Assembly: GCA_030603635.1 (NCBI GenBank)
Contig: JAUVXK010000015.1
Location: 1 to 38,223 of the forward strand
Length of the DNA stretch: 38,223 nucleotides
Reading direction: 5' to 3'
DNA from: Burkholderiales bacterium
GTDB lineage: Bacteria > Pseudomonadota > Gammaproteobacteria > Burkholderiales > Burkholderiaceae_C
Part shown: in pieces, positions 6,920 through 35,436 of the stretch
Layout: the number at the start of each line of letters is the position of its first letter
Numbering within the stretch: the stretch's first letter is position 1
Made by a program: the position numbers and the translations under genes
The notes under the pieces: model-generated
Told to the model about the DNA's origin: nothing
Databases searched by the model: none
Seen by the model: only the letters and a program-made list of their open reading frames with translations

Positions 6920-7933
6920 TCATTGACTTGCAGGCCCCTCAACAAAGCTGTCGGTATGGATGTCTTTGGGACTTGCTCCACAGGAGAGGGCGGTTTGTCT
7001 GACGGCTTCCACCATACCCGGAGAACCGCAGATGTAGATGATGTGGTTATTCAGGTCATTGAAGCGGCAGGCCAGCGCTTCATCGGCTCTGCCCACAAAG
7101 TAGCTGTTTCCATGGCTTGTTGTGGGTACAGTGTTCACTGCAGGCACGAACTGGAAGTCAGGCCAGAACTTCTGCCATTTTTCAACAGCTGACTGCATGT
7201 AGAGACCTGAAGGGTCACGCGCCCCCCATATCAATGCCAGCTGTCTTTGTGCTTTCTTTTTGAGCAGTCCATCGAGAATGGATTTGACGGGTGCAAAGCC
7301 TGTGCCACCCGCCACGAAAACCACGGGTCTGTTGTCTTGTTCATCTAGATCCACATGGCCATAGGGCAGTTCGATGTCCAGTGTGTCTCCTGGTTTGAGA
7401 GTTGAAACCCTGCTGCTGAAATATCCCCCTGGTACATGACGAATATGCAGGGTTACGCCGTCACTTTCATGCGGAGCGTTGGCCATGGAATAGCTCCGGG
7501 AACTGCCATCTTCCATGCGGATGAGTAGATACTGCCCTGCACGGAATTTGATCTTTTTGCCAGCGGGTAGCCTCAGTTGCAGCACCGATACATCTGGTGC
7601 GGCCAGTTCATTGCGGTAAACCCTGGCGGTGAAGGTTTTGGGGGCACCGTCTTCTGAGCGTTTCCAGCTGGTCGGCTGTATGACCAGGTCGGTGGATGGC
7701 TCGCATCCACAGAAAAGAACCTGTCCTTCAGCACAATTGTCGTGGCGGAAGGGGAGTGAGCCATGCGGCTGGATGTTGCCCTCGGTTACGCTGCCGGCAC
7801 AATTGCCACAGATGCCTTTGCGGCAGGAATAGGGCAGTGAGATGCCAGATTTGAGGGCTGCATCAAGGATGGTCTGTCCAGGTTGACAGACAAAGCTGAT
7901 GTCCGTGCCTTGAAGTTTGATCTGAAAGCTCAT
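6920..7933 (-). CDS. tphA1: Terephthalate 1,2-dioxygenase reductase component
   Basis: TphA1 passes electrons from NAD(P)H to the oxygenase TphA2A3. The 337-residue protein has three domains: an N-terminal plant-type [2Fe-2S] ferredoxin ([10 protein letters not shown], then FCGCEP for the fourth cysteine, residues 1-90), an FAD domain with RSYSMAN, and an NAD domain with [10 protein letters not shown] and CGSPGM. As I remember the Comamonas sp. E6 TphA1 (336 residues), the match is close over the whole length, including the stretch [14 protein letters not shown]. Its ATG overlaps the tphB stop by four bases (ATGA), so translation is probably coupled. A more general name, CDP-6-deoxyglucoseen-reductase-like, is likely from automatic pipelines. 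Confidence 0.92.
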
Positions 7934-8889
7934 GTGAATATGGTCTGGTTTCCCATTAGCAGTGCCACGGTTCGTAGAACGGCTGTTGGTTCTGCAATCC
8001 CCTTGCCTGCAATGTCCATGGCGCTTCCATGACCTACACTCGACAACAGGACATCAGCTCCAATGGAAAGGGCGCTGGCCGCTTTGGGCGACAGCAGTTT
8101 GACGGGGATATGCCCCTGGTCATGAAAGATGGCCACGTACAGGTCATGCCTGCGGTCTGCCAGGGCAACGTCTGCACCCATGGGGCCGTCGATGTGGAGG
8201 CCATACTCCCGCAGTGTCTTGGCTGCCGGGACGGTGATGTTTTCGTCTTCTGTGCCAAAGAGGGTTCCCTCCGAGGCATGGGGGTTGATGCCAAACAGGG
8301 CCACCGAGGGTGTTTCGATGCCCAGCCGCTGACAGCCACGTATGCCTGCCTGTGTGGCTTTGATAACCAGTTCCGGTGTAATCCGGTTTAGGGCGTTCTG
8401 GACACTTTCATGCAAGGTGGTGTGAACTATCCTCAGGCCACCTCCAACCAGCATCATGAAGACTTCGTTCTCACTGACGTTGCAGACTCTGGCGACCAGG
8501 GATGGGTAGCCGCTGAATGGAATGCCTGCCCTGTGTATAGCGGTTTCATGGTGGGGGCAGGCCACCACTGCATCGAACATACCTTGACGGCAGGCATGGA
8601 TGGCTGCGGTGGCCGACTCCACAGTGGAAAGACCGGCGTCCGCGTCAATTACCCCTGGTTTGAGCTTTCCTGGCAAAGTGCCAGCTTCGACGTGACTGAC
8701 TTTTCCCAGAAGGTCTTGCAGTCCGCAGATGTTGGCAGCGTGCTCCAGTGCCTGAGCCGGGCCGAACAAGGTGATGTTGGACCTTTGTGGCTCAGGCAGG
8801 GCGCTCATGGCTTTCAGGGCAATTTCTGGCCCAATGCCATGAGGATCGCCCAAAGCCAGTGCTATGCGTCGGCTGACAGGTGTATTCAC
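7930..8889 (-). CDS. tphB: 1,2-dihydroxy-3,5-cyclohexadiene-1,4-dicarboxylate dehydrogenase (PdxA family)
   Basis: TphB oxidatively decarboxylates the cis-dihydrodiol of terephthalate to protocatechuate, using NAD and a metal ion. It belongs to the PdxA fold family, so pipelines may label it 4-hydroxythreonine-4-phosphate dehydrogenase; the operon argues against a vitamin B6 role. The 319-residue sequence keeps the family [14 protein letters not shown] opening and three candidate metal-ligand histidines, in [15 protein letters not shown] and [22 protein letters not shown] and [17 protein letters not shown] match my memory of Comamonas TphB closely. The start is GTG at 8889, overlapping the tphA3 stop by four bases (GTGA). 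Confidence 0.92.
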
Positions 8890-9350
8890 AGTGGGAGGAC
8901 CAGCAGGGTATCTACCACTGAGCTGTCACAAACGGCAATGCGCTCGGACAGCAGGAGTTGTCCGTCCTGCCTGATGAACCGGTCCAGATACACCCCGGTC
9001 GCGAAAACGTCGGTTTCGCCGGTGTGCATGATCCTAGCCACCATGAAAGGGGTCCGTGCTTGCGCCGTGCTGTCCGAGGCTTCTGTGATCAGGGGAATGC
9101 CGATCAGGTGGCGGTAGGTGTGCCTTTCGTAGATATTGGCTTCCCGAAGGGCGGAAACTCGGTCTGTCAGCATGTCCCGCGTATCCGCCCAAACCAGCCC
9201 TGCTGCCAGTCCCGCGCGATAGTTCTCGATGCTGGTCACCCGGTAGTTACACTCGGCTGTGAAGAAGCTGGGCCACCGCTCCAGATCATCGCTGTCAATT
9301 GCATCGGCGTAGGCGGCATTGAAGACCGCGATTTGAAGGAGGTCAATCAT
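8886..9350 (-). CDS. tphA3: Terephthalate 1,2-dioxygenase small (beta) subunit
   Basis: This is the non-catalytic beta subunit of a ring-hydroxylating dioxygenase, with an NTF2/SnoaL-like cone fold. From the ATG at 9350 the product is 154 residues, the same length I recall for Comamonas TphA3, with the characteristic [39 protein letters not shown] and [16 protein letters not shown] segments. The frame is open upstream to 9461, but that stretch overlaps tphA2 and is not family-like. The start overlaps the tphA2 stop by eight bases. Confidence 0.93.
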
Positions 9351-10581
9351 GGGCTGCCTCCATGTGATGGCGGTAAGCTTTCCAGAAACCACGAATTGAA
9401 GTTTCCGTGGCCCGGCCTTCACTGGAGCCAACGGCATCTCCGCCCATCTCGACCACGGCATCCAGGTCGCTGGCGCCGGCTATGCCACGCTGGACAAAAC
9501 CGCCGACAGCACCGTCTTCCATGGAAATGAACCCAGCCGGCCCGACCAGATTCAACTGTTTCAGCCTGATCTTGCGTTGTTCGTGGGTGTCATCGGCATA
9601 ACCCAAATAGGTCCAGTTCAGCTCGCTCTTCTCGATGCCTTTGGGTAGAAGTTGACGTATGGCTATGCAGTTTTGGATTTGCTGAACCACCAGACCGGGG
9701 AACACGGAGAGGATTTGCAGGGTGATGCCATCGTCGTACTCATGAAAGCCAGACAGCAGACTGGGATCTTTGAGGCGGTACCTTTCATTGTCAGATCGCA
9801 GAGCCTGTTCTTTGTATGAGTCGTCTTTGGCTGCAGGATCAATCATGGAGTAGCTGACATGGTGCCCTCCCGAACTGTCGACGATCACGCCGCCTTTCTG
9901 GGACAAGCGGTTGATTTCAAAGGTGGTAAAGAAGGTATGCAGCAGACTGGCGTGATAGCTGTCCTTCACATTTTCAAAGTAAAGCTTCCAGTTGTTGGGC
10001 AGTGCCTGGGTAAAGCGACCTATGACTTCCACTGGTTTGTGCAGTACTCGCTCTATGCGGGCTGCAATTTCTTCACCTAGGTACTCCTCGATGTCGGGGA
10101 CATCGTCAGAGAAACTGCCAAAAACCAGCCCACAGAAGGTAGTTGTCCTCAACCTTCGAGGGCTGTGCTCTTCCTTGCAGAAGGTGGGAGGCATTCCTCC
10201 TTGTCCTTTGACGCCCTGCTCAAAAGCCACGCCGGTCAGCTCTCCCTGGAGGTTGTAGCTCCATGCGTGGTAGACACACTGAAAGCTTTCCACCTTTCCG
10301 GTCTTCTCCAGCGCGATCAACGCGCCCCGGTGGGCGCAGCGGTTTTCAAAAGCGTAGATTTCTTCATCTTCACCGCGAACCACCACCACTGGGGTTTCCC
10401 CAACAAAGGTGGTGCGGTAACTGCCAGTTTCTGGCAGTTCGACTTCCAGACAGAGGTAGTTCCAGACTGCACCTCTGAAGATGCGTTCCTGCTCTTGCTG
10501 GTGGGTGAGGCTGTCCCCGTAGATCGCGTAAGGAATGCGAGTGTTGTCTCGCCGCTTCCATTGAATGGTCTGCGTTTGCAT
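9343..10581 (-). CDS. tphA2: Terephthalate 1,2-dioxygenase large (alpha) subunit
   Basis: This Rieske non-heme iron oxygenase adds O2 across C1-C2 of terephthalate. The Rieske centre is C-x-H-x17-C-x2-H (CAHRGAL ... CVYHAW, about residues 66-90). The mononuclear iron site is in [13 protein letters not shown] (H-x4-H), with the bridging aspartate immediately before. The 412 residues align, from memory, over essentially the full length with Comamonas TphA2 (413 residues), including [25 protein letters not shown] and [20 protein letters not shown]. This is well beyond generic dioxygenase similarity and supports terephthalate as substrate. The start at 10581 is preceded by TAAGG, where the tphC stop forms part of the ribosome site. 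Confidence 0.94.
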
Positions 10582-10589
10582 GTTTGGCC

Positions 10590-11561
10590 TTATTCCAATG
10601 TCACCTTGGCTGTTTGAATAACTTTTTTCCATTTTTCAGACTCGGCTCTGATGAACTGTCCAGTGCGCTCTGGCGACCAGCCCGCTGGTTCAGTGCCCTG
10701 TTCTTCAAACCGTTGTCTTACCTCGGGGGAAGACAGGGCTTCGGCAATCTGGGACTGAAGCCTTGCTGCCGCTGCAGCAGGTGTTCCGGGAGGCGCTACA
10801 ACCGAGAAGAAGGTTACGGCCTGCATGTTGGGCAGGCCCTGTTCGGCAAAAGTGGGAATGTCGGGCAGGATTTTGGACCTTTTCTCACCTGCGACAGCAA
10901 AGATGCGGATGCTGTTGGAGTTGTGATGGGGCGCAGACGAGCTGATGTTGTCGAAAAAGACGTCCACGTTTCCAGCAATCAGGTCCACCAGTGCGGGTGC
11001 TGTGCCCCTGTATGGAATATGGATCATTTCAGTGCCTGTGAGCTGCATGAACAGGGCCGCAGTCAGGTGGGAGGTGGAGCCGTTACCCTGCGATGCCACA
11101 CTGACTTTGCCTGGATTGGCTTTCAGGTAGGCAATGAGTTCCTGCAGGTTCTTGACCGGCAGCTTGTTGCTGACACCCAGGATGTTGGGCGCTGTGGCCA
11201 GAACAGTGACTGGAACCCACTGGGTGGGATCAAAAGACAGTTTGCTGTATAGATGGTGGTTCACTGCTATCGGGCCAGGTGGCGAAGCCAGTACGGTCAG
11301 ACCATCAGGTTCAGATCGGAATACTCGCTCTGCACCAATGTTGCCGCCAGCACCCGGCCTGTTGTCCACCACGACCCCGCCTGCATAGTGGGCACGTATT
11401 TTTTCCGCTACGATTCGTGGCAAGATGTCTGCGGTGCCTCCCGCCGGAAAGGGAACGATAAAGCGTAGGGTATTGCCGCTTTGTGCCCATACGCTCCCGC
11501 CCATCAAGGTCAAGGCCGCGCCTTGAATGACGGTACGACGACGGATGGATGTTGGGTTCAT
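10590..11561 (-). CDS. tphC: Tripartite tricarboxylate transporter substrate-binding protein, terephthalate-binding
   Basis: This is a periplasmic solute receptor of the Bug/TctC family. A signal peptide with a twin-arginine-like [20 protein letters not shown] opens the 323-residue protein, followed by the family's [16 protein letters not shown] and the GAGGNIG and NGSTSHL regions. In Comamonas sp. E6, TphC delivers terephthalate to membrane subunits (TpiBA) encoded apart from the tph operon; likewise no membrane subunit is present here. The start at 11561 has an AGGAGA site; a longer frame to 11603 lacks one. It is the first gene of the catabolic operon, nine bases upstream of tphA2. Confidence 0.9.
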
Positions 11562-11625
11562 GCATGTCTCCTGTGTTGTTGGAAGACGGATTATTGGAAG
11601 CAATCAAGTGCCCCTTCAAGCAATA

Positions 11626-17905: not shown

Positions 17906-19264
17906 ATGCCCCAGCCTTCAGCTTCACACGACCCCGCCTACATCCAGCAGTGGATGGACGAGCACCGCATCACCGAGGTGGAATGCCTGATTCCCGACAT
18001 GGCGGGTCAGGCGCGCGGCAAGATCGTGCCCCGCCACAAGTACAACCCTGCCGTGGGCCTGCGCCTACCCGAGGCGGTGCTCACCATGACGGTGACCGGC
18101 GATTACCCTGAAAAGGATTTCACGTCGGTGGCCGACGGCGACATGGTGCTCACGCCCGACGCCACCACGCTGCGGCCGGTGCCCTGGGCCAAGGAGCCGA
18201 CGGCCCAGATCATCCACGACTGCCACCGTTTCGATGGCACCGAAACCCCCTTGTCGCCCCGCAGTGTGTTACGCCGAATGATCGGGCTGTACGAGGCCGA
18301 AGGCTGGAAGCCGGTCATCGCCCCGGAAATGGAGTTCTATCTGGTCCAGGTCGAACCCGACGAAGACATTCCGCTGAAACCCCCCGTGGGTCGCACGCGC
18401 CGCACCGAGGCCGGCATGCAGAGCTTTTCGATCGACTCGGTCAACGAGTACGACGACATCTTCGACGTGATGTACGACTGGTGCGAAGCCCAGGGCATCC
18501 AGCTTGACACGCTGATCCACGAGATGGGTACGGCGCAGATGGAGATCAACCTCGACCATGGCGATCCGTTGCCGCTGGCCGACCAGGTGTTCCTGTTCAA
18601 GCGCACGGTGCGCGAGGTGGCGATTCGGCACAACATGTACGCGACCTTCATGGCCAAGCCCATGCAAGGGCAGCCCGGCAGTGCCATGCACATTCACCAG
18701 AGCGTGCTGTCCACGGCGAGCGGCCAGAACATCTTCAGCCGGCCGGACGGCGAGGCCTCCGACGAGTTTTTCCATTTCATCGGTGGGTTGCAAACCTATC
18801 TGCCGGCCGCCACGGCGGTCTTTGCGCCCTATGTGAACTCGTACCGGCGCCTGTCGCGATTCACGTCGGCGCCCATCAACCTGAGCTGGGGTTACGACAA
18901 CCGCACCTGCGGCCTGCGCGTGCCCCATTCAGGGCCAGAGGCGCGGCGCGTGGAAAACCGGCTGGCGGGGGTGGATGTGAATCCCTACCTGGCGATTGCG
19001 GTGAGCCTGGCCTGTGGCTATCTGGGCATGAAACAGCGCATCCGGCCTTCGGAGCCGACCACCGGCAGCGCCTACGAGCAACCGCACCAGCTGCCGCGCC
19101 ATCTGGACGACGCCATCGAACGCCTGACGGCCTGCCAACCGCTGGCCGAGCTTTTTGGCGAGCACTTCCTGGAAACCTACAGCGCCATCAAGGAGGCGGA
19201 ATACCAGGAGTATTTCGACGTGGTCAGCCCCTGGGAACGCCGCTTCCTGTTGTTGCACGTGTGA
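17906..19264 (+). CDS. Glutamine synthetase family protein (gamma-glutamylpolyamine synthetase-like)
   Basis: This is a 452-residue ATP-dependent ligase of the glutamine synthetase fold. The metal-binding PEMEFYLV, the glutamate/ATP motif HEMGTAQMEINL, GSAMHIHQS and the C-terminal NRTCGLRVPHSGPEARRVEN with DVNPYLAIA are all present. The sequence lacks features of the GlnA housekeeping enzyme and resembles the PuuA-type group that joins glutamate to polyamines or other amines; the amine is not predictable. It stands alone here, downstream of a GlxA-type regulator on the same strand and convergent with a transporter. Confidence 0.87.
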   Translation: MPQPSASHDPAYIQQWMDEHRITEVECLIPDMAGQARGKIVPRHKYNPAVGLRLPEAVLTMTVTGDYPEKDFTSVADGDMVLTPDATTLRPVPWAKEPTAQIIHDCHRFDGTETPLSPRSVLRRMIGLYEAEGWKPVIAPEMEFYLVQVEPDEDIPLKPPVGRTRRTEAGMQSFSIDSVNEYDDIFDVMYDWCEAQGIQLDTLIHEMGTAQMEINLDHGDPLPLADQVFLFKRTVREVAIRHNMYATFMAKPMQGQPGSAMHIHQSVLSTASGQNIFSRPDGEASDEFFHFIGGLQTYLPAATAVFAPYVNSYRRLSRFTSAPINLSWGYDNRTCGLRVPHSGPEARRVENRLAGVDVNPYLAIAVSLACGYLGMKQRIRPSEPTTGSAYEQPHQLPRHLDDAIERLTACQPLAELFGEHFLETYSAIKEAEYQEYFDVVSPWERRFLLLHV

Positions 19265-19270
19265 GCGGGA

Positions 19271-19292
19271 GCGCCCGCCATGGGCGGTGCGC
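19271..19292. terminator. Possible hairpin terminator between convergent genes
   Basis: A GC-rich hairpin (GCGCCCGCC facing GGCGGTGCGC) lies between the glutamine-synthetase-like gene and the symporter gene, which end towards each other. There is no T-run, so it is only a candidate. Confidence 0.3.
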
Positions 19293-19300
19293 CTGGGTAC

Positions 19301-20668
19301 TCAGCGGGCAGGTCTGAGCCAGGCGAGTCCCACGCTCACCACGGTCGATGCCACCAGGGCACCCAGGAAGGGGGCGAGGGTGGGGATGCTGTTGGGGAAG
19401 CTGGCCGCCAGCAGGCCACCTGCCAGCGAGCCGGTCTGCACCCAGCCGGGCAGCACGGCACCGATCAGGCCGGCCACGCAGCCCCCCACGGCGGCCGCCG
19501 GCGTCATGCGGCTCCACAGCCCCAGCAGCACCGGGACCACGGCCGTGGCGCAGAGCAGATCGGCGATCAGGAACAGGCGCAGCACCGATAGCCCCTGCAG
19601 AGAGACCAGCACCACAGGCACCATCAGCCCCACCGTGACCCAGCGCGCCGCCGACAGGGAAAACCCACGGCGGCTGGTGACCACCAGCGAGGCGATGCCG
19701 TTTTGCAGGGTGTCGACCGACGACGCGACCAGCGCCAGCGCCAGCAGCAGCGCCGGCAGGGCCAGCCACCCGGGTGCATCGGCCAGCAGGGCGAAGAAGG
19801 GAATGGGCGGCTGACCCAGGTTCTTGCCCGAAGCGGCCGCGAGGATGCCCAGCCCGCCCACCACGATCACCACCAGCACGGTGGCCACGCCACCCAACCA
19901 GGCACCGCGGTGCAGGGCCTGGTCGCTTTCCGCCGCCCATACCCGTTGCCAGTAGCCCTGGTGAAAGAGGTTGGCAGCGGTCACGGCGATCACCAGCGTC
20001 AGCGCCACCGACAGCGACACCCCGATCGGCGCGGCGGGCAGGGGGTTGTCAAAAGTACCGGCTGGCAGGGACGGCAAGGCCACACCTGCGACGATCACCA
20101 GCAGGCCCACCAGCAGCCAGGCCTGCCAGCGGTCGGTGGCCAGGCTGGCGCGCAGGCCACCCCATGCAGTGTAGATGAGGGTGGTGATGGCCACGCCCAC
20201 CACCGTCCAACTGCCTGGTATGTCGGACAGCATGGCCGTGATGGCTCCGATGGCCGTGAGTTCGGCCGTGATGAAGCACAGCATATAAAGCACCGACATG
20301 GCCGACACCCAGTGGCGCAGGCCGGTACCGAAACGTGCCTGGGCGTATTCGCTGATGCTCCGGCCTTGTGGGAGCCGGCGCCGGATGGCCGGGCCGCACC
20401 ATGCCAGCAGCAGGAAGGGCAGTGCGGCGCCCGCCGCGTAACCCGCCACGGCCACTGGGCCCACGAAGGCTCCCACCTCGGGCGGTGCAAACAGGATCCA
20501 GGCACCCATCCCCGAGGCCAGGAACGACAGGCCGAGCGTGGTGGCCCCCTGCGAGTTGCGGGCCGTGAGGTATTGGTCGAGGTCGCCATGTGGGGTGCGT
20601 GCCCGCAGGCCGACCCAGACGAACAACAGGAGTGCCGCCCCCAGGGCGGCCAATGTGGCGTATGCCAT
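19301..20668 (-). CDS. Sodium:solute symporter family transporter under TPP control
   Basis: This 455-residue protein has about twelve to thirteen hydrophobic segments and the SSF-family pattern: an opening TM then LTARNSQGATTLGLSFLAS and GRSISEYAQARFG. Its mRNA leader is a TPP riboswitch, so the cargo is probably thiamine or a precursor such as hydroxymethylpyrimidine. SSF proteins under THI elements have been predicted as thiamin-related transporters and named ThiV; I consider this a likely relative but have not compared sequences. The Shine-Dalgarno GGAGG is nine bases before the ATG, inside the aptamer. Fold and riboswitch are seen; the substrate is inferred. Confidence 0.88.
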   Translation of the reverse strand: MAYATLAALGAALLLFVWVGLRARTPHGDLDQYLTARNSQGATTLGLSFLASGMGAWILFAPPEVGAFVGPVAVAGYAAGAALPFLLLAWCGPAIRRRLPQGRSISEYAQARFGTGLRHWVSAMSVLYMLCFITAELTAIGAITAMLSDIPGSWTVVGVAITTLIYTAWGGLRASLATDRWQAWLLVGLLVIVAGVALPSLPAGTFDNPLPAAPIGVSLSVALTLVIAVTAANLFHQGYWQRVWAAESDQALHRGAWLGGVATVLVVIVVGGLGILAAASGKNLGQPPIPFFALLADAPGWLALPALLLALALVASSVDTLQNGIASLVVTSRRGFSLSAARWVTVGLMVPVVLVSLQGLSVLRLFLIADLLCATAVVPVLLGLWSRMTPAAAVGGCVAGLIGAVLPGWVQTGSLAGGLLAASFPNSIPTLAPFLGALVASTVVSVGLAWLRPAR

Positions 20669-20675
20669 GTCGCGC

Positions 20676-20757
20676 TTCCTCCGCCGGCATGAACCGGTTC
20701 AGGTTCCAGGGTCTGCGCGGGTTGGGCGCACTCTCAGCCCCTTGCGGGACTCCCCTG
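20676..20757 (-). promoter_or_regulatory. TPP riboswitch (THI element)
   Basis: On the minus strand the leader shows the conserved THI-box parts in order: a G-rich P2 arm, CTGAGA, then ACCCTGGAACCTGA, a CCGG hairpin and ATGCCGGCGGAGGAA. The GGAGG near the 3' end (20682-20678) is the ribosome site of the symporter gene, so TPP binding would hide it and block translation. Confidence 0.93.
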
Positions 20758-20789
20758 GCGACTGTTGAACAAATGATGAAGGCGCGAGT

Positions 20790-21782
20790 TTAGCGCGAAT
20801 TCACCAGTACCAACTTGCCCTTCACCTGGCGGCTGCCCATCCGTGCATAGGCCTGAGGCAGTTCGCTCATGGGCAGGGTGCAGTCGATCACGGGCTTGAT
20901 CTTGCCCTGCAGGTACCACTGCGCCAGAGTCTGCATCATCGCGGCATTGGCCTGGGGTTCGCGCTTGGCGAAATCGCCCCAGAACACGCCCACAATGGAA
21001 GCGCCCTTGAGCAGCGGCAGGTTCAGCGGCAGGCTGGGAATGGGGCCGGAGGCGAAACCGATCACCAGATAGCGCCCCCGCCAGGCGATGGAGCGGAAAG
21101 CCGGTTCGGCAAAATCGCCGCCGACCGGGTCGTAGATGACATCCGGGCCTTTGCCGCCCGTGGCCTGCTTGATCGCTTCGCGCAGTGTGCCTGCGGGCGT
21201 ATGCTCACTGTAGTTGATGGTGGCGTGCGCCCCCGCCTCGCGGCACAGCGCGCATTTCTCCTCGCTGGAGGCCGCGGCAATCACATGGGCGCCGGCTTCC
21301 CGCGCGATCTGAATGGCCGCTGTGCCCACACCGCCTGCACCGCCGAGCACCAGCACGGTTTCCCCCGCCTTCAGGGCCGCGCGGTCGATGAGGGCATGGT
21401 AGGAAGTGGCGTAGGTCATGATGAAGGCGGCCGCGTCCACTAGGTCGAACCCGGGGGGTAGGGGCATGCACAGGGCGGCCGGCGCCAGGGTGTGGGTGCC
21501 GAACCCCCCCGTGCCGCTCAGGCAGGCCACGGGCTGCCCAGGTTTCAGGTGGGTCACCTCGCTGCCCACCGCTTGCACCACCCCGGCGTATTCGGCGCCT
21601 GGCACAAACGGCAGCGGGGGCTTGATCTGGTACTTGTTCTGGACGATCAGCAGGTCGGGAAAGTTGAGGCTGGCCGCGTGGATCTCGATCAGCACGTCTT
21701 TCGGTCCGGGTTGCGGGGTGGGCAGATCCTTCCAGGTCAGGGCTTCCACGCCCACGGGGTTTTCGCACAGCCAGGCTTGCAT
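20790..21782 (-). CDS. NADPH:quinone oxidoreductase family protein (zinc-free MDR)
   Basis: This is a 330-residue medium-chain dehydrogenase/reductase. The N-terminal GroES-like domain has the typical DVLIEIHAASLNFPDLL and FVPGAEYAGVV, and the Rossmann part has LVLGGAGGVGTAAIQIA. The zinc-ligand cysteines of alcohol dehydrogenases are absent, which places it with quinone oxidoreductases and enoyl reductases. The physiological acceptor is unknown. It ends about 30 bases before the riboswitch of the symporter gene on the same strand, so readthrough transcription is possible, but the riboswitch would still gate translation. Confidence 0.9.
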   Translation of the reverse strand: MQAWLCENPVGVEALTWKDLPTPQPGPKDVLIEIHAASLNFPDLLIVQNKYQIKPPLPFVPGAEYAGVVQAVGSEVTHLKPGQPVACLSGTGGFGTHTLAPAALCMPLPPGFDLVDAAAFIMTYATSYHALIDRAALKAGETVLVLGGAGGVGTAAIQIAREAGAHVIAAASSEEKCALCREAGAHATINYSEHTPAGTLREAIKQATGGKGPDVIYDPVGGDFAEPAFRSIAWRGRYLVIGFASGPIPSLPLNLPLLKGASIVGVFWGDFAKREPQANAAMMQTLAQWYLQGKIKPVIDCTLPMSELPQAYARMGSRQVKGKLVLVNSR

Positions 21783-21885
21783 GCAGGTCTCCTTGTCAGT
21801 CTTGTATCACGCTGGATCATAGGGACGGCGACCACACCGGACCAGTTCCACTTGTCCCTGTGGCGACGCCCTACAATCCCGTTCA

Positions 21886-22725
21886 ATGAAGATTCTTCTG
21901 TCCAACGACGACGGTTATCAGGCCCCGGGCATTCGGGCGCTTCACGAGGCCCTGAGCGAGATCGCCAGTGTCGAGGTGGTGGCCCCCGAGCACAACAACA
22001 GTGCCAAATCCAATGCCCTGACCCTGCACTCGCCGCTGTATGTGCACACCGCCGCTGATGGCTTTCGTTATGTCAACGGCACCCCGGCAGACTGCGTGCA
22101 CATCGCGCTCACGGGTCTGCTGGGTTACACGCCCGATCTGGTGGTGTCCGGCATCAACAACGGCGCCAACATGGGTGACGACACCATCTACTCGGGCACC
22201 GTGGGCGCTGCCATGGAAGGCTACCTGTTTGGGGTGCCGGCGATCGCGTTTTCCCAGACCGAGAAAGGCTGGCGTCACCTGGACGCCGCCGCCGCCAAGG
22301 CGCAGGAGCTGGTGCGCTTTCTGATGCCCTCGATCGAGGCCCATCGCCTCGCCAGTGAGGGGGGGCACCATGAACCCTGGTTGCTGAACGTGAACATGCC
22401 CTGTGTGCCACTGGCGCAGATGCAAGGCTTCAAGGTGGCCCGACTGGGGCGCCGCCATGCGGCGGAACGTGTCATCACCCAGGTGAGCCCGCGTGGCGAG
22501 ACCATGTACTGGATCGGCGCGGCCGGCCCCGCCAAGGACGATGCCGAGGGCACCGATTTCCACGCCGCCGCCCAAGGCTACGTGTCGATCACGCCCTTGC
22601 AGATCGACCTGACCGATCACTCCCGACTGGCGTACTGGGCGCAATCGGCGGCCCATCTGTCGGCACGGCAGTCGGCGACCGAGCCGCTGGACGCACAACG
22701 TCCCATCGAGCATCAACCGCGGTGA
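21886..22725 (+). CDS. surE: 5'/3'-nucleotidase SurE
   Basis: SurE is a metal-dependent nucleoside monophosphatase linked to stationary-phase survival. The opening [19 protein letters not shown] holds the DD metal ligands, and [26 protein letters not shown] and [20 protein letters not shown] are diagnostic. The 279 residues are slightly longer than usual (about 250), with a C-terminal tail of low complexity. It overlaps pcm by four bases (GTGA), the usual surE-pcm coupling. Confidence 0.97.
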
Positions 22726-29893: not shown

Positions 29894-30980
29894 CAATTAG
29901 ATTCGGAGGTTCTCGGTACAGAGGGTCCGTGGTAATGCCGGGAATCGTGTCCACGCCGCAGAGCGCCATGCTGGCGCTGAACTCGTCAAGCAGCAGGCGC
30001 AGCACATGGGCCACGCCCTGGGCACCGGCGTTGACCAGTCCATGCACCACAGGGCGCCCCAGCAGCACCGCGTCGGCACCCAGTGCCAGGGCCTTGAAGA
30101 TATCGGTTCCACGTCTGATGCCCCCATCGACCAACAGGGCGATCCGGCTTTGCACGGCGTCAGCGATGAGAGGCAGTACATCGGCCGTGGCCGGTGTGGT
30201 GTCGAGCACCCGACCCCCGTGGTTGGATACGATGATGCCGGCGGTGCCCACTTCGCAGGCCTGGCGGGCATCGGCCGGGTGGAGAATGCCTTTGAGCAGC
30301 AATGGCAGAGGGCTGTGCGCGCGCAACCATTCCACATCGGCCCAGGTGGCCGACTGTTGCAGCAGCGCACGCAGATCATGCCCCTGATGGGCAGTAGGTG
30401 GCATGTGGGGCAGGGTGAGGTGATCAGGCACCCGGATGGCTGCTCGCCGTTCGCGGTCGCGCACGCCATGGATGGGGGCATCGACTGTCAGCACCAGTGC
30501 GTCGAAACCGGCGGTGGCCGCCCGGTGCGCCAGCTCCAGGCTCCACGCCCTGTCGCCCAGATGGTAAAGCTGGAACCACAGCGGCCCTCGCCCTGCTTCG
30601 TCCGCCACATCGTGGGCGACCTGTTCCAGTGGGGTGTTGGATTGCATGCTCAGCACCAGGCCTGTGCCCAATGCGGCGGCGGCCAGTGCGGTCGCGCGCT
30701 CACCATCGGGGTGCAGCCAGGCCTGCTGTGCCATGGGTGCCACCAGCAGCGGAGTGGGCCAAAGACGGCCCAGCAGATGCGTACGCAAGTCTGGCAAGGT
30801 GCTGCTGCGAAGCACACGAGGCCACAGGTTCAGACGTGACCACGCCTGGCGGTTGGCATGAAGGGTGATTTCGTCGGCCGCCCCACCGTTGAAGTAGGCG
30901 TCGGCTTCAGGTGTCAGCCGCTCCCGTGCCCGTGTTTCATGGTCGGCGAGATTGACGGGCGTTCCTGGCACCGCAGCCAT
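29889..30980 (-). CDS. FMN-dependent alpha-hydroxy-acid oxidase/dehydrogenase
   Basis: This 363-residue TIM-barrel flavoprotein belongs to the lactate/glycolate oxidase family. It shows TPLLVAPMAQQAWLHPDGE, the FMN/substrate region QLYHLGDR, LTVDAPIHGVRDRE, the catalytic histidine in IIVSNHGGRVLDTTPATADV, and DGGIRRGTDIFKALALGADAV. Whether it is a dehydrogenase coupled to the respiratory chain or an oxidase making H2O2 cannot be told. Its start codon overlaps the stop of the PiuC-like gene (TGATG), so it is co-translated with iron-uptake genes. The frame opens at 31139; [10 protein letters not shown] at 30980 is the family-like start. Confidence 0.88.
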   Translation of the reverse strand: MAAVPGTPVNLADHETRARERLTPEADAYFNGGAADEITLHANRQAWSRLNLWPRVLRSSTLPDLRTHLLGRLWPTPLLVAPMAQQAWLHPDGERATALAAAALGTGLVLSMQSNTPLEQVAHDVADEAGRGPLWFQLYHLGDRAWSLELAHRAATAGFDALVLTVDAPIHGVRDRERRAAIRVPDHLTLPHMPPTAHQGHDLRALLQQSATWADVEWLRAHSPLPLLLKGILHPADARQACEVGTAGIIVSNHGGRVLDTTPATADVLPLIADAVQSRIALLVDGGIRRGTDIFKALALGADAVLLGRPVVHGLVNAGAQGVAHVLRLLLDEFSASMALCGVDTIPGITTDPLYREPPNLIE

Positions 30981-31672
30981 CACGTGTCGGCCCACTGGCG
31001 AAGCAGGTTGTGATAGACGCCGGTGAGCGCCGTGGTCTCGGCGGTTTCTCCATGCTGCTGACGCAGCTTGAGCAGGTTCATGTCGAGATCGAACAGCAGT
31101 CGACGCTGCTCGTCGCTGCGGACCATGCTTTGCACCCACAAAAAGCAGGCCAGCCGCTCGCCCCTTGTGACGGGAGTCACTTCATGCAGGCTGGTCCCCG
31201 GGTAGATCACCGCCTGACCGGCACGCAGCTTCACGCCACGGGTTCCGTAGGTGTCGCTCACCGTCAGTTCTCCGCCGTCGTATTCGTCCGGATCATTCAG
31301 GAATATGGTGCATGACACGTCGGTGCGCACATATTCGGTCTGCCCTCCGGGAACCGGCTTCAGGCGAACGGCATTGTCCACGTGGTTGCCGTAATGGTTG
31401 CTGCTTCCCCCGTAGCGGTTGATGCGTGGGGTAAACACCCTCAACGGCAAGGCGGCGCTTAAAAACAGCGGTGAGCGGTTCAGCCCGTCCAACACCCGTG
31501 ACGTGATCTGTCGGGCCGCATCGCAGTCGTGCGGCAACTGCTCGTTATTCTTCACGGTGCGCGCCTGCGGCCCGGCACTGGAGCGCCCGTCTTCCCAGGG
31601 GGCCGAGGCCAGCAGGGATCGGGCCAGCCGGAGGTCGTCCGGCGTGAGGATGTCAGGCAATGCAAGCAGCAT
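30980..31672 (-). CDS. piuC: Fe(II)/2-oxoglutarate-dependent PKHD-type hydroxylase (PiuC/YbiX-like)
   Basis: This is a 230-residue non-heme iron dioxygenase of the PiuC/YbiX group. The iron ligands are H97 and D99 in [11 protein letters not shown] and H163 in [15 protein letters not shown], with a downstream arginine (R173) for 2-oxoglutarate. The N-terminus [10 protein letters not shown] matches the family. PiuC genes accompany catecholate siderophore receptors of the PiuA/Fiu type; the substrate is not established as far as I know. It follows the receptor gene by seven bases. Confidence 0.92.
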
Positions 31673-31679
31673 CGAAAAC

Positions 31680-34016
31680 TCAAAATTTCATGGTGGCAGT
31701 GAGCTGCAGCATTCGGCCTGCGCCCGGCACGTAGTGCGCCGGGTAGAGCTGATCGGCATACAGCTTGTTGGTGACGTTGCTCAGGTTGGCCTTCAGGACC
31801 AGCTTGTCGAAGTCGAGGCGGTATTCAGCCATCAGATCCGCCGTGACATAGCCGGGCACATGGAACGCGGCCCGGGTCGGCGTCTGCTTGCTGCGGAAGT
31901 TCAGGCCTCCACCCACGCGCAGTTTGGGGGTGAGCTGGTACGTGGTCCATACGGTGCCGCTGTGCTCCGGAGTCAGGGCGGGTCGGTCACCCACGCGTTC
32001 ACCCGGTGTGTTCTGCGCGCACGCGCCTGAGGGAGGGCAAGGCGCTGCCTGTGTCACCCTTGCCACCGGGATCCACATGTACGAACCGTATATTTCCCAT
32101 TGCGGGGTCAGGCGACCAGTCAGGTCGATTTCAAAGCCGGCCACATGGCGTTTGCCACTGGTGGCGATCACGGCTTCCGTATTGCCGGTGACCGGGTTGA
32201 TGACGGTGCGGTCGGGGTCGGTGTTGCGTTCGTTCAGCTTGGTGGAACGGAACAGGGCCAGGCGTGTGGTCCACTGCCTGTCGGCCGAGTCCAGTTTGGC
32301 CCCGATTTCGAAGTTGATGCTTTTCTCGGGTGGCGTGTCTGCGTTGCCGGCGCTCAGTGAATAGGCATCGCCCGATGTGTTGAACGATGTGCCTGCCGAT
32401 ACGTGGTACGAGTGCCTGTCGTTCGGCTGGTAGAGCGCGCCGATGCGCTGGCTCACCTCGGAGATGTGCATCCGGTAGGCGGTGACGGTTTCCGGCCCCG
32501 CAGCGTTGTTGGGGATGCTGCGCAGGTGGTAGTCGCCCGTCAGGTTGTCGTAGCGCAGGCCACCGACCAGCTTCACGTGCGGCGACACCTGCACCACGTC
32601 CTGCACATAGGCTCCCCAGCCGCTGGCGGTGTAGTCGTTGTTGACCCGGAGCACGCGGGAGGCCTCGTCCACCGAGGCGCCGTCGTTGGGTGTGCCCACC
32701 GTGGTGGTGGGTTTGCTGATGGTGACGCCCCCCTGGTTGGCGTTGCGCGCTGCAAACACGGTCCGTTTTTCCTGCGAGAGGTCGGCGCCTGCTGTCAGCT
32801 CGTGTCGCACCCCCAAAGCCATGAACTTGTTGGTGTAGTCGGTCTGGACCTGTGTGAGGTCCATGCTCTGGATTTTGAGATGGGTACCCCGCGTCAGCAC
32901 GGTGTTGGGGCCGAAGTTGGTCAGATTGGCGGCCACACCACCTGGCTGCTGGGCAGCGGCAGCAAAACGTATGGCCCCTGATCGCTGGTCACGGTTGAAT
33001 TCACCCACACGAACCTTGGTGGTCAGTTCGCTGTCGCGGCTGAAACGGTGCGTGTGCGCCAGCGTGGCAATGGTGCCGCCGCTTCTGTTGTAGTCGCTCG
33101 CCAGGCCGTAATACGCCTTGGGGTCGAGCGGCAGCAATGCGCGCTCGGTATTGGGTGCGCCCGCGTACGGTGCAATGAAGGGTATGCCGTAGTTGATGCC
33201 GTTGTCGTTGTCCAGGTGATACAGGCTGGCCAGAAACTCGTTGCGCTCGCCAATGCCCCAGCGGTAGCTGGCCGCCAGGCCGCGTTTGTCGATGCTGCTG
33301 CCTGATCCGTTGTTTTTCGCCTCGGTGGCCATGGCATTGATCCGCAGGGCCGAGGCTGGGCCCGTCTGGATGTTGAAGTCGCCCGTCACGCGACGATAGC
33401 CGTGGCTGCCCAGGGTGAGGTTGACTTCATGCTCGTCCATCAGGCGCGGTGTCTTGCTGACCTGGTTGACCGCGCCGCCCGTGGAGCCGCGGCCAAACAG
33501 CATGGATGCCGAGCCACGCAACACTTCCATGCGGTCCAGATTGAAGGTGTCGCGGTCGTAGATGGCCGGGTCACGCATGCCGTCGATGAACAGGTCGCCA
33601 GTGGCCTGCAGGGCAAAGCCGCGCAGGCGGATGTCTTCATCGCCGCCCTCGGCCGCGAGAAAAGTGATGCCGGCCGTGTTCTTGAGGGCTTCCTTGACTG
33701 TGTCAAGGTTGCGATCGTCGATCAGTTTTTCGGTGACCACGGTGACCGACTGGGGAATGTCGCGCAGCTGCTGTTTGCCTTTGCCGATGCTGGTTTCGGT
33801 GGCGCGCACCGAATCTTTGCCCTCAGGGGCTTCGGCCTGCTCTTTCACCGTGACGGTGGACAGCGTGGCTTCGGCGTGGGGGGTGCTCTGGGCCATGGCG
33901 CCGAGCGATGTGGCCAGCAGCATGGCACCTATGGGGAGAAGGGCAGGGGCTGTAGGTCTGGAAGGATTTTCAAGGCGGGCGTGAACAGCCACGCCAATGT
34001 TGCGAGTGGGCTTCAT
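31680..34016 (-). CDS. piuA: TonB-dependent catecholate siderophore receptor (Fiu/PiuA-like)
   Basis: This is a 778-residue outer-membrane receptor. A signal peptide runs to about residue 43 ([13 protein letters not shown]), followed by a TonB-box-like STVTVKEQ, a plug domain ([60 protein letters not shown]) and a 22-strand-type barrel ending in [14 protein letters not shown] with a terminal phenylalanine. Plug and barrel features and the following piuC gene point to the Fiu/PiuA group for monomeric catecholates. A Fur-like site lies 80 bases upstream. Confidence 0.92.
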
Positions 34017-34460: not shown

Positions 34461-34937
34461 TTATTTCACGTCGCCCATGATGCTCTGCTGGTAGTTGAGC
34501 AGGCCGACCTTGTCGATCAGATCGATCTGGGTTTCCAGGAAGTCGATGTGTTCCTCCGTGTCTTCCAGAATGCTGAGCAGAAGGTCACGTGAGACGTAGT
34601 CGCGAACGGATTCACAGTGCGCGATGCCCTCCTTGATGGTGGCCTGGGCGGCTCGTTCGAGCCCCAGATCGCAGGTGAGCATTTCCTTGACGTCTTCACC
34701 TATGCTCAGTTTGCCCAGGTCCTGCAGGTTGGGCAGGCCGTCGAGCATGAAGATGCGGTCCATCAACTGGTCGGCATGCTTCATTTCGCCGATGGACTCT
34801 TCGTATTCCTTCTTGGCCAGCTTGTCGAATCCCCAGTGCTTGAGCATGCGGTAGTGGACAAAGTATTGGTTGATGGCCGTCAGCTCGTTCTTGAGCTGGG
34901 CCTGCAGATGGGCTATGACCTGAGCGTCGCCTTTCAT
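34461..34937 (-). CDS. bfr: Bacterioferritin
   Basis: Bfr stores iron as a 24-subunit shell and oxidises Fe(II). From the ATG at 34937, with an AAGGAGAA site, the product is 158 residues, the same as E. coli Bfr. Ferroxidase ligands E18, E51 and H54 and the heme-ligand methionine M52 ([12 protein letters not shown]) are in their standard positions, and the C-terminal [20 protein letters not shown] is typical. An in-frame ATG five codons upstream is less likely. The gene has its own terminator, and no Fur box is evident immediately upstream. Confidence 0.97.
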
Positions 34938-35034
34938 GGGGTTCTCCTTCAAGCTTCAAATGCAATATTGTGGGTCCAGGTCATGTGGCCTGTCGACCGT
35001 TCCATGAGGTGACCCTGCTGTAGAGGTCTAACGG

Positions 35035-35436
35035 TCAATGCGTATCGTTGTCATTGTTGTTGAAGGCTGGTGCGGCATAGGCCGTGATGACGTATCCGGT
35101 CAGCCGCCACCCGTGTGCGTTTGCAAGCCGGCTCAGCTCCTCTTTTAGTCCGGGCAGGGTGAATTCGCTGACTTCACCGTTGCTGCACACCAGGTGACCA
35201 TGTTCCTCTTCGCCTTCCATGGGCAGTTCGAACACCGACCGACCCTGACCCAGATCGTTGCGCTGCAGGATGCCTGCCTGTTCAAACTGCGACAGCACCT
35301 TGTACACAGTGGCCATGCCAACGGGCTGCTGACGCTCGACCAACATGCGGTACACGTCATCAGCGGTCAGATGCCGGACAGTGCTCTCGCGGAACACGTC
35401 GAGAATGAGCATTCGGGGGACTGTATTGCGAAACAT
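35035..35436 (-). CDS. Fur-family metalloregulator, short form
   Basis: This is a 133-residue Fur-family protein. The winged-helix domain is clear (LTADDVYRMLVERQQPVGMATVYKVLSQFEQAGI). The dimerisation domain keeps EHGHLVC and AHGWRLTGYVITAYA but lacks the paired C-x2-C structural zinc cysteines, with only one cysteine at SNGEV. The N-terminus is short, since an in-frame stop lies eight codons upstream of the ATG. It could be Fur itself, a PerR-like peroxide sensor or another paralogue; its place between bfr and ahpC fits either. A large palindrome lies just upstream of its start. Confidence 0.85.
   Translation of the reverse strand: MFRNTVPRMLILDVFRESTVRHLTADDVYRMLVERQQPVGMATVYKVLSQFEQAGILQRNDLGQGRSVFELPMEGEEEHGHLVCSNGEVSEFTLPGLKEELSRLANAHGWRLTGYVITAYAAPAFNNNDNDTH

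Follow-up and report, generated by a model that had tools for sequence, protein, structure and literature searches.

Direct translation attenuation, as described by Barrick and Breaker, places the ribosome-binding site (RBS) within the conserved core of a riboswitch aptamer and dispenses with an additional expression platform; thiamin pyrophosphate (TPP) riboswitches employ it by way of the purine-rich region at their 3' end (Barrick and Breaker, 2007; PMC2258182). TPP riboswitches are also found in the ThiV/SSSP branch of SSF transporters, in Methylobacillus and SAR11 (PMC4260697; PMC2704228). The cargo of this branch has been under discussion since 2002 (Rodionov, 2002, as related in papers citing that work): McRose et al. 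proposed thiamin or hydroxymethylpyrimidine (HMP) (PMC4260697), and in SAR11, which displays high-affinity, HMP-specific uptake, ThiV is the likely carrier (PMC11452348). Here, we analyse a 38,223-nt stretch of a Burkholderiales genome (GenBank assembly GCA_030603635.1, contig JAUVXK010000015.1, positions 1 to 38,223; hereafter, the window), in which a single TPP riboswitch precedes a gene for an SSF transporter. As judged from sequence comparisons, this element very probably is a TPP-sensing OFF switch that acts by direct translation attenuation on a probable HMP symporter.

The window locus resembles each of the described systems in some respects and departs from them in others. Like the Barrick and Breaker class, it buries the RBS in the aptamer core without an extra expression platform, whereas, unlike the examples of that class, it belongs to a proteobacterial transporter clade. 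The ThiV/SSSP proteins of SAR11 (SAR11_0811) and Methylobacillus are likewise SSF transporters with a TPP riboswitch of their own, and a probable SAR11 locus (L186) has a GGAGG built in beside the ATG, as in the window. However, the window protein is only ~32% identical to SAR11 ThiV/SSSP, and SAR11 is an HMP auxotroph, whereas the window host has thiC. The thiC, thiM and tbpA riboswitches of Escherichia coli share the aptamer class and the OFF logic with the window, but their expression platform is separate and located downstream. The window riboswitch-transporter pair is well supported and ordinary, both the type of switch and the transporter family being already known. The source genome (2.9 Mb in 202 contigs) is closest to Tepidicella: protein identity with the window transporter amounts to 97% in T. 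baoligensis (L056) and 91% in T. xavieri (L003).

An aptamer with a built-in Shine-Dalgarno sequence

The covariance-model search (cmscan) yielded a full-length match to the Rfam TPP riboswitch family (RF00059, THI element; model positions 1-105) at the start of the transporter gene, with a score of 61.6 bits (E = 6.8e-10), above the curated gathering cut-off of 54.3 bits (Table 1). The window shares with the family helices P1-P5, the optional P3a, and the CUGAGA and CCUGA-CGNAGG cores; in 24 homologues, P3 and P3a show covariation, with a score that none of 500 shuffles reached. An earlier, sequence-only reading of the locus had proposed a TPP riboswitch in this leader, and the match bears it out. 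The same reading called the aptamer complete, which holds for coverage of the model but needs qualification at J4/5 (see below), and set the upper limit of the element at 20757, too low to take in the 5' strand of P1; the aptamer requires 20762-20669.

Table 1. Features of the riboswitch-transporter locus in the window
Feature	Position	Strand	Evidence and remarks
TPP riboswitch aptamer P1-P5	20669-20762	-	RF00059; the Rfam match itself spans 20658-20766
P1 5' strand GUCGC	20758-20762	-	partner 20669-20673; intact in 72/72 homologous riboswitch leaders
CUGAGA motif, pyrimidine-binding arm	20732-20737	-	in Rfam alignment; invariant across the homologue alignment
J4/5 position, A in window	20698	-	U in 68 homologues, C in 3
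Shine-Dalgarno GGAGG (J5/4 and P4 3' strand)	20678-20682	-	sequence; 9 nt from start in 72/72 homologues
P1 3' strand GCGAC	20669-20673	-	within spacer, last base adjoins start codon; GCGAC in 71/72 leaders, GCGAT in 1
SSF transporter, ThiV/SSSP branch, 455 aa	19301-20668	-	PF00474, AlphaFold model, Foldseek
PIG3-like quinone oxidoreductase, 330 aa, upstream	20790-21782	-	stop codon ~27 nt before P1

On the minus strand, the gene start reads ...CCGGCGGAGGAAGCGCGAC-ATG, and a 9-nt spacer separates the GGAGG from the ATG at 20668, in agreement with the sequence-only reading; the leader RNA is GUCGCCAGGGG...CCUGAACCGGUUCAUGCCGGCGGAGGAAGCGCGAC-AUG. The GGAGG replaces the GUAGGG of the Rfam consensus, giving a canonical Shine-Dalgarno sequence. 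Because P1 (GUCGC paired with GCGAC) ends on the base directly preceding the AUG, no terminator or sequester hairpin fits, and there is no room for a separate expression platform, the lack of which had also been claimed. Furthermore, the GGAGG and the spacer both lie inside the aptamer, so that the same bases serve the ribosome and the ligand.

From this arrangement, we infer that the window RNA binds TPP and operates as an OFF switch. When TPP is plentiful, it would bind the P2-P3 and P4-P5 arms and lock P1, P4 and P5. The GGAGG, which consists of the ligand-contacting J5/4 base and the 3' strand of P4, would be paired in the TPP-bound state and the spacer would be held in P1, so that the ribosome could not initiate translation of the transporter. 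Under TPP scarcity, the short helices would come apart frequently enough to admit the ribosome; the symporter would then be made and would in turn import HMP or a near relative together with sodium, supplying the ThiD-ThiE-ThiL route.

Conservation of the layout

We assembled a clade sample of 81 genes, namely, the window gene and 80 homologues from named genomes of beta- and gammaproteobacteria. A TPP riboswitch precedes 72 of these genes, and the distance between GGAGG and start is exactly 9 nt in every one of the 72 leaders. The fixed distance points to translation as the level of control. A contrast set was drawn from the bacterial family to which the window belongs and comprised 95 TPP riboswitches. 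Three of these precede close relatives of the window transporter and have the GGAGG with the ATG 9 nt on, whereas none of the other 92 has a GGAGG at 9 nt before the start; in these, the start codon is located far downstream. In the genome that carries the window, the thiC riboswitch (L002) reads GGCGGAAGAAGAGC, with the thiC start ~110 nt further downstream and no built-in GGAGG-start layout. The comparison of leader sequences (72/72 versus 0/92) confirms that the layout is not a product of chance, and direct translational control by the window riboswitch, as envisaged in the sequence-only reading, is supported by these comparative data.

All nine clade genes lacking a TPP riboswitch come from Marinobacter (L010, L022, L024, L029, L036, L041, L053, L067 and L078; ~70% protein identity). 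In five of the nine, GGCGGAG stands shortly ahead of the ATG and may be left over from the 3' end of the aptamer. Two further Marinobacter loci, L048 and L058, retain the riboswitch.

P1 is nearly invariant on both strands in the clade (Table 1), whereas four-fold degenerate third bases are identical in only 43% of comparisons, and the P1 columns of the family contrast set take 53 different forms. A near-invariant P1 sequence is more than pairing by itself would demand. It is conceivable, if rather improbable, that aptamer, Shine-Dalgarno sequence, spacer and start form a fused cassette in which the sequence of P1 itself, besides its pairing, is under selection; if so, the P1 strands would have a second job, for instance in a different fold of the ligand-free RNA that exposes the RBS or in direct contact with the initiating ribosome.

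Deeper relatives

A phylum-wide search recovered L186 (profile match, E = 8e-65), a protein 32% identical to the window transporter and encoded in a 1.2-Mb, single-contig genome of 29% GC that, by its size and GC content, is most likely of SAR11. The L186 leader (GGCGGAGGAAG; GGCGGAGGAAGAAAACAU-AUG) contains a TPP riboswitch of 71.2 bits, with the GGAGG inside the aptamer and the ATG 10 nt after it. P1 is GUUUUC/GAAAAC in L186 compared to GUCGC/GCGAC in the window. The P1 sequence has thus changed entirely, while its pairing has been kept through compensatory changes.

A third branch comprises seven Burkholderiales relatives with 35-38% identity; five of these have TPP riboswitches that exceed the cut-off and in which the GGAGG is replaced by CGAAGGGA or CGAAAGGA. 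In the Comamonadaceae locus L086 (G023), the TPP riboswitch (CGAAGGGA; positions 1513-1607) belongs to a divergent SSF gene, 34% identical, with the start further away, and a second TPP riboswitch in divergent orientation lies ~200 bases off. L185 and L188 (Burkholderiales) similarly combine a ThiV-like gene and its TPP riboswitch with an oppositely pointing second one ~75-190 bases away; in L185, the gene on the divergent side resembles a short-chain dehydrogenase.

The transporter and its cargo

The transporter gene product matches the SSF family (PF00474) with 30.2 bits against a Pfam cut-off of 22.8. Whereas a single-protein phmmer search against the PDB gave no match, and a profile search against the PDB retrieved only chains of the urea symporter DUR3, an AlphaFold model built from 28 homologues (mean predicted local distance difference test score, pLDDT, of 82) has the SSF fold, with Foldseek matches to SGLT2 (E = 1.7e-11), CHT1, NIS and SiaT (E = 5.1e-9). 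The assignment to the SSF family made from the sequence alone thus stands. Tyr77, Glu136 and Phe235 are possible counterparts of the binding-site residues Tyr78, Asp139 and Phe254 (SiaT numbering) of ThiV/SSSP; the three are invariant in the 28 homologues and shared with L186, with Glu in the place of the acidic Asp. Sequence kinship with L186, which has its own TPP riboswitch, places the window protein with ThiV/SSSP.

The gene neighbourhoods of several relatives contain thiamin genes. In four Comamonadaceae loci (L032, L037, L049 and L068), the transporter gene adjoins thiD and/or thiO, and three of the four include a second TPP riboswitch; the order in several Comamonadaceae is thiD followed by a TPP riboswitch with thiO and a ThiG-like open reading frame (ORF; named by eye). 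Haloarchaeal relatives adjoin tenA, and one of them also thiD and a gene for thiamine-phosphate synthase. The host genome has thiC, thiD and thiL, as well as a thiE-like gene just below its cut-off; the search for pathway genes one by one gave no TenA match in this genome. Taken from these sequence data, the cargo of the window symporter is most likely HMP or a close relative, a pyrimidine precursor of thiamin, and its transport is presumably coupled to sodium. The sequence-only reading had described thiamin-related cargo as predicted but not well characterised; the prediction does exist, but it has a long history of discussion, and HMP uptake has been tested in SAR11 (PMC11452348; PMC4260697).

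Alternative explanations

Several observations weigh against direct attenuation on an HMP importer. In the energy model, the GGAGG is already mostly paired in the absence of ligand, with an opening cost of ~2.5-5.6 kcal/mol; therefore, TPP would act by tipping an equilibrium that is already in place, and not by a large refolding. The fold computed for the window leader allows the 3' strand of P1 to pair with a stretch upstream; we rejected this 5' anti-P1 strand (UCGCGCCUUC with GAAGCGCGA) because L056, the closest relative, is not predicted to fold in this way. The J4/5 sequence, AA in the window alone compared to AU in 68 and AC in 3 of the 72 homologous leaders, is unusual and could weaken TPP binding. 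Finally, the host has thiC and makes its own HMP, so that the importer would serve salvage and not be essential. The J4/5 substitution also invites the explanation that the window copy is decaying, with TPP binding crippled and the gene now constitutive. We consider this very unlikely: C is tolerated at the same position, AACCUGAACU with A at J4/5 recurs in another riboswitch of the family (L105), the rest of the window aptamer is intact, including P1 and the Shine-Dalgarno sequence, and the leader of L056 is normal. Thus, the A is probably tolerated.

Control might instead be mainly transcriptional, the translational block triggering Rho-dependent termination within the untranslated coding region. 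Such a scheme would accord with the changes in mRNA levels that can accompany translational TPP riboswitches, as described for E. coli tbpA (PMC11487190), and with a weak terminator-like hairpin at 20643-20627, but it appears unlikely, given the constant GGAGG-start distance in the clade and the number of terminator-like sites in the region, which is near the shuffled expectation (3 versus a mean of 1.2). An intrinsic terminator has no room between P1 and the ATG, and on these same grounds of space and chance-level sites we rejected a separate expression platform. Two further pairings were discarded: a ligand-free switch between 5' CGCC and 3' GGCG occurs in no predicted fold and is impossible in L186, given its P1 5' strand GUUUUC, and a CACU/AGUG pairing upstream of P1 in Halomonas shows no covariation, the 3' base toggling between C and T while CACU is constant. 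With respect to the cargo, the symporter might carry thiamin itself or a different compound, for instance a thiazole or an amino acid, although we regard this as the less likely case. The proteins retrieved from the PDB by profile are urea symporters, the Foldseek matches are transporters of sugars, choline, iodide and sialic acid, the haloarchaeal relatives bear the database name sodium:proline symporter, and thiamin is one of the two SSSP substrates proposed by McRose et al. (PMC4260697). However, the tenA, thiD and thiO neighbours and the HMP-specific uptake of SAR11 (PMC11452348) favour HMP, and the second host TPP riboswitch, on thiC, fits a role in the pyrimidine branch.

Genomic context

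A search of 19200-22000 on the minus strand gave no sigma-70-like promoter. Given the lack of a promoter-like site and the short distance from the stop codon of the quinone oxidoreductase gene to P1, the two genes may be cotranscribed, in which case translational control would affect the second gene, the transporter, alone. Elsewhere in the window, the minus strand of 6920-11603 encodes a Rieske dioxygenase large subunit, a small-subunit-like protein, a PdxA-like dehydrogenase, a ferredoxin reductase and a Bug-type binding protein, and the opposite strand carries an IclR-like regulator; this cluster looks like an aromatic acid degradation operon. An iron-uptake pair consists of a Fiu-like TonB-dependent siderophore receptor (31680-34016) followed by a PiuC-like hydroxylase (30980-31672; named by eye), and bacterioferritin-like and Fur-like ORFs, both named by eye, lie nearby (34461-35436).

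Implications

The locus offers a compact natural system in which five bases would be contested by ligand and ribosome. It also adds comparative evidence, the compensatory change in P1 included, for a link between the ThiV/SSSP branch and vitamin B1 that spans SAR11, Comamonadaceae and Halomonadaceae. If borne out, the assignment would provide cultivable models, Tepidicella and Halomonas, for HMP uptake, a process for which SAR11 is genetically hard to study.
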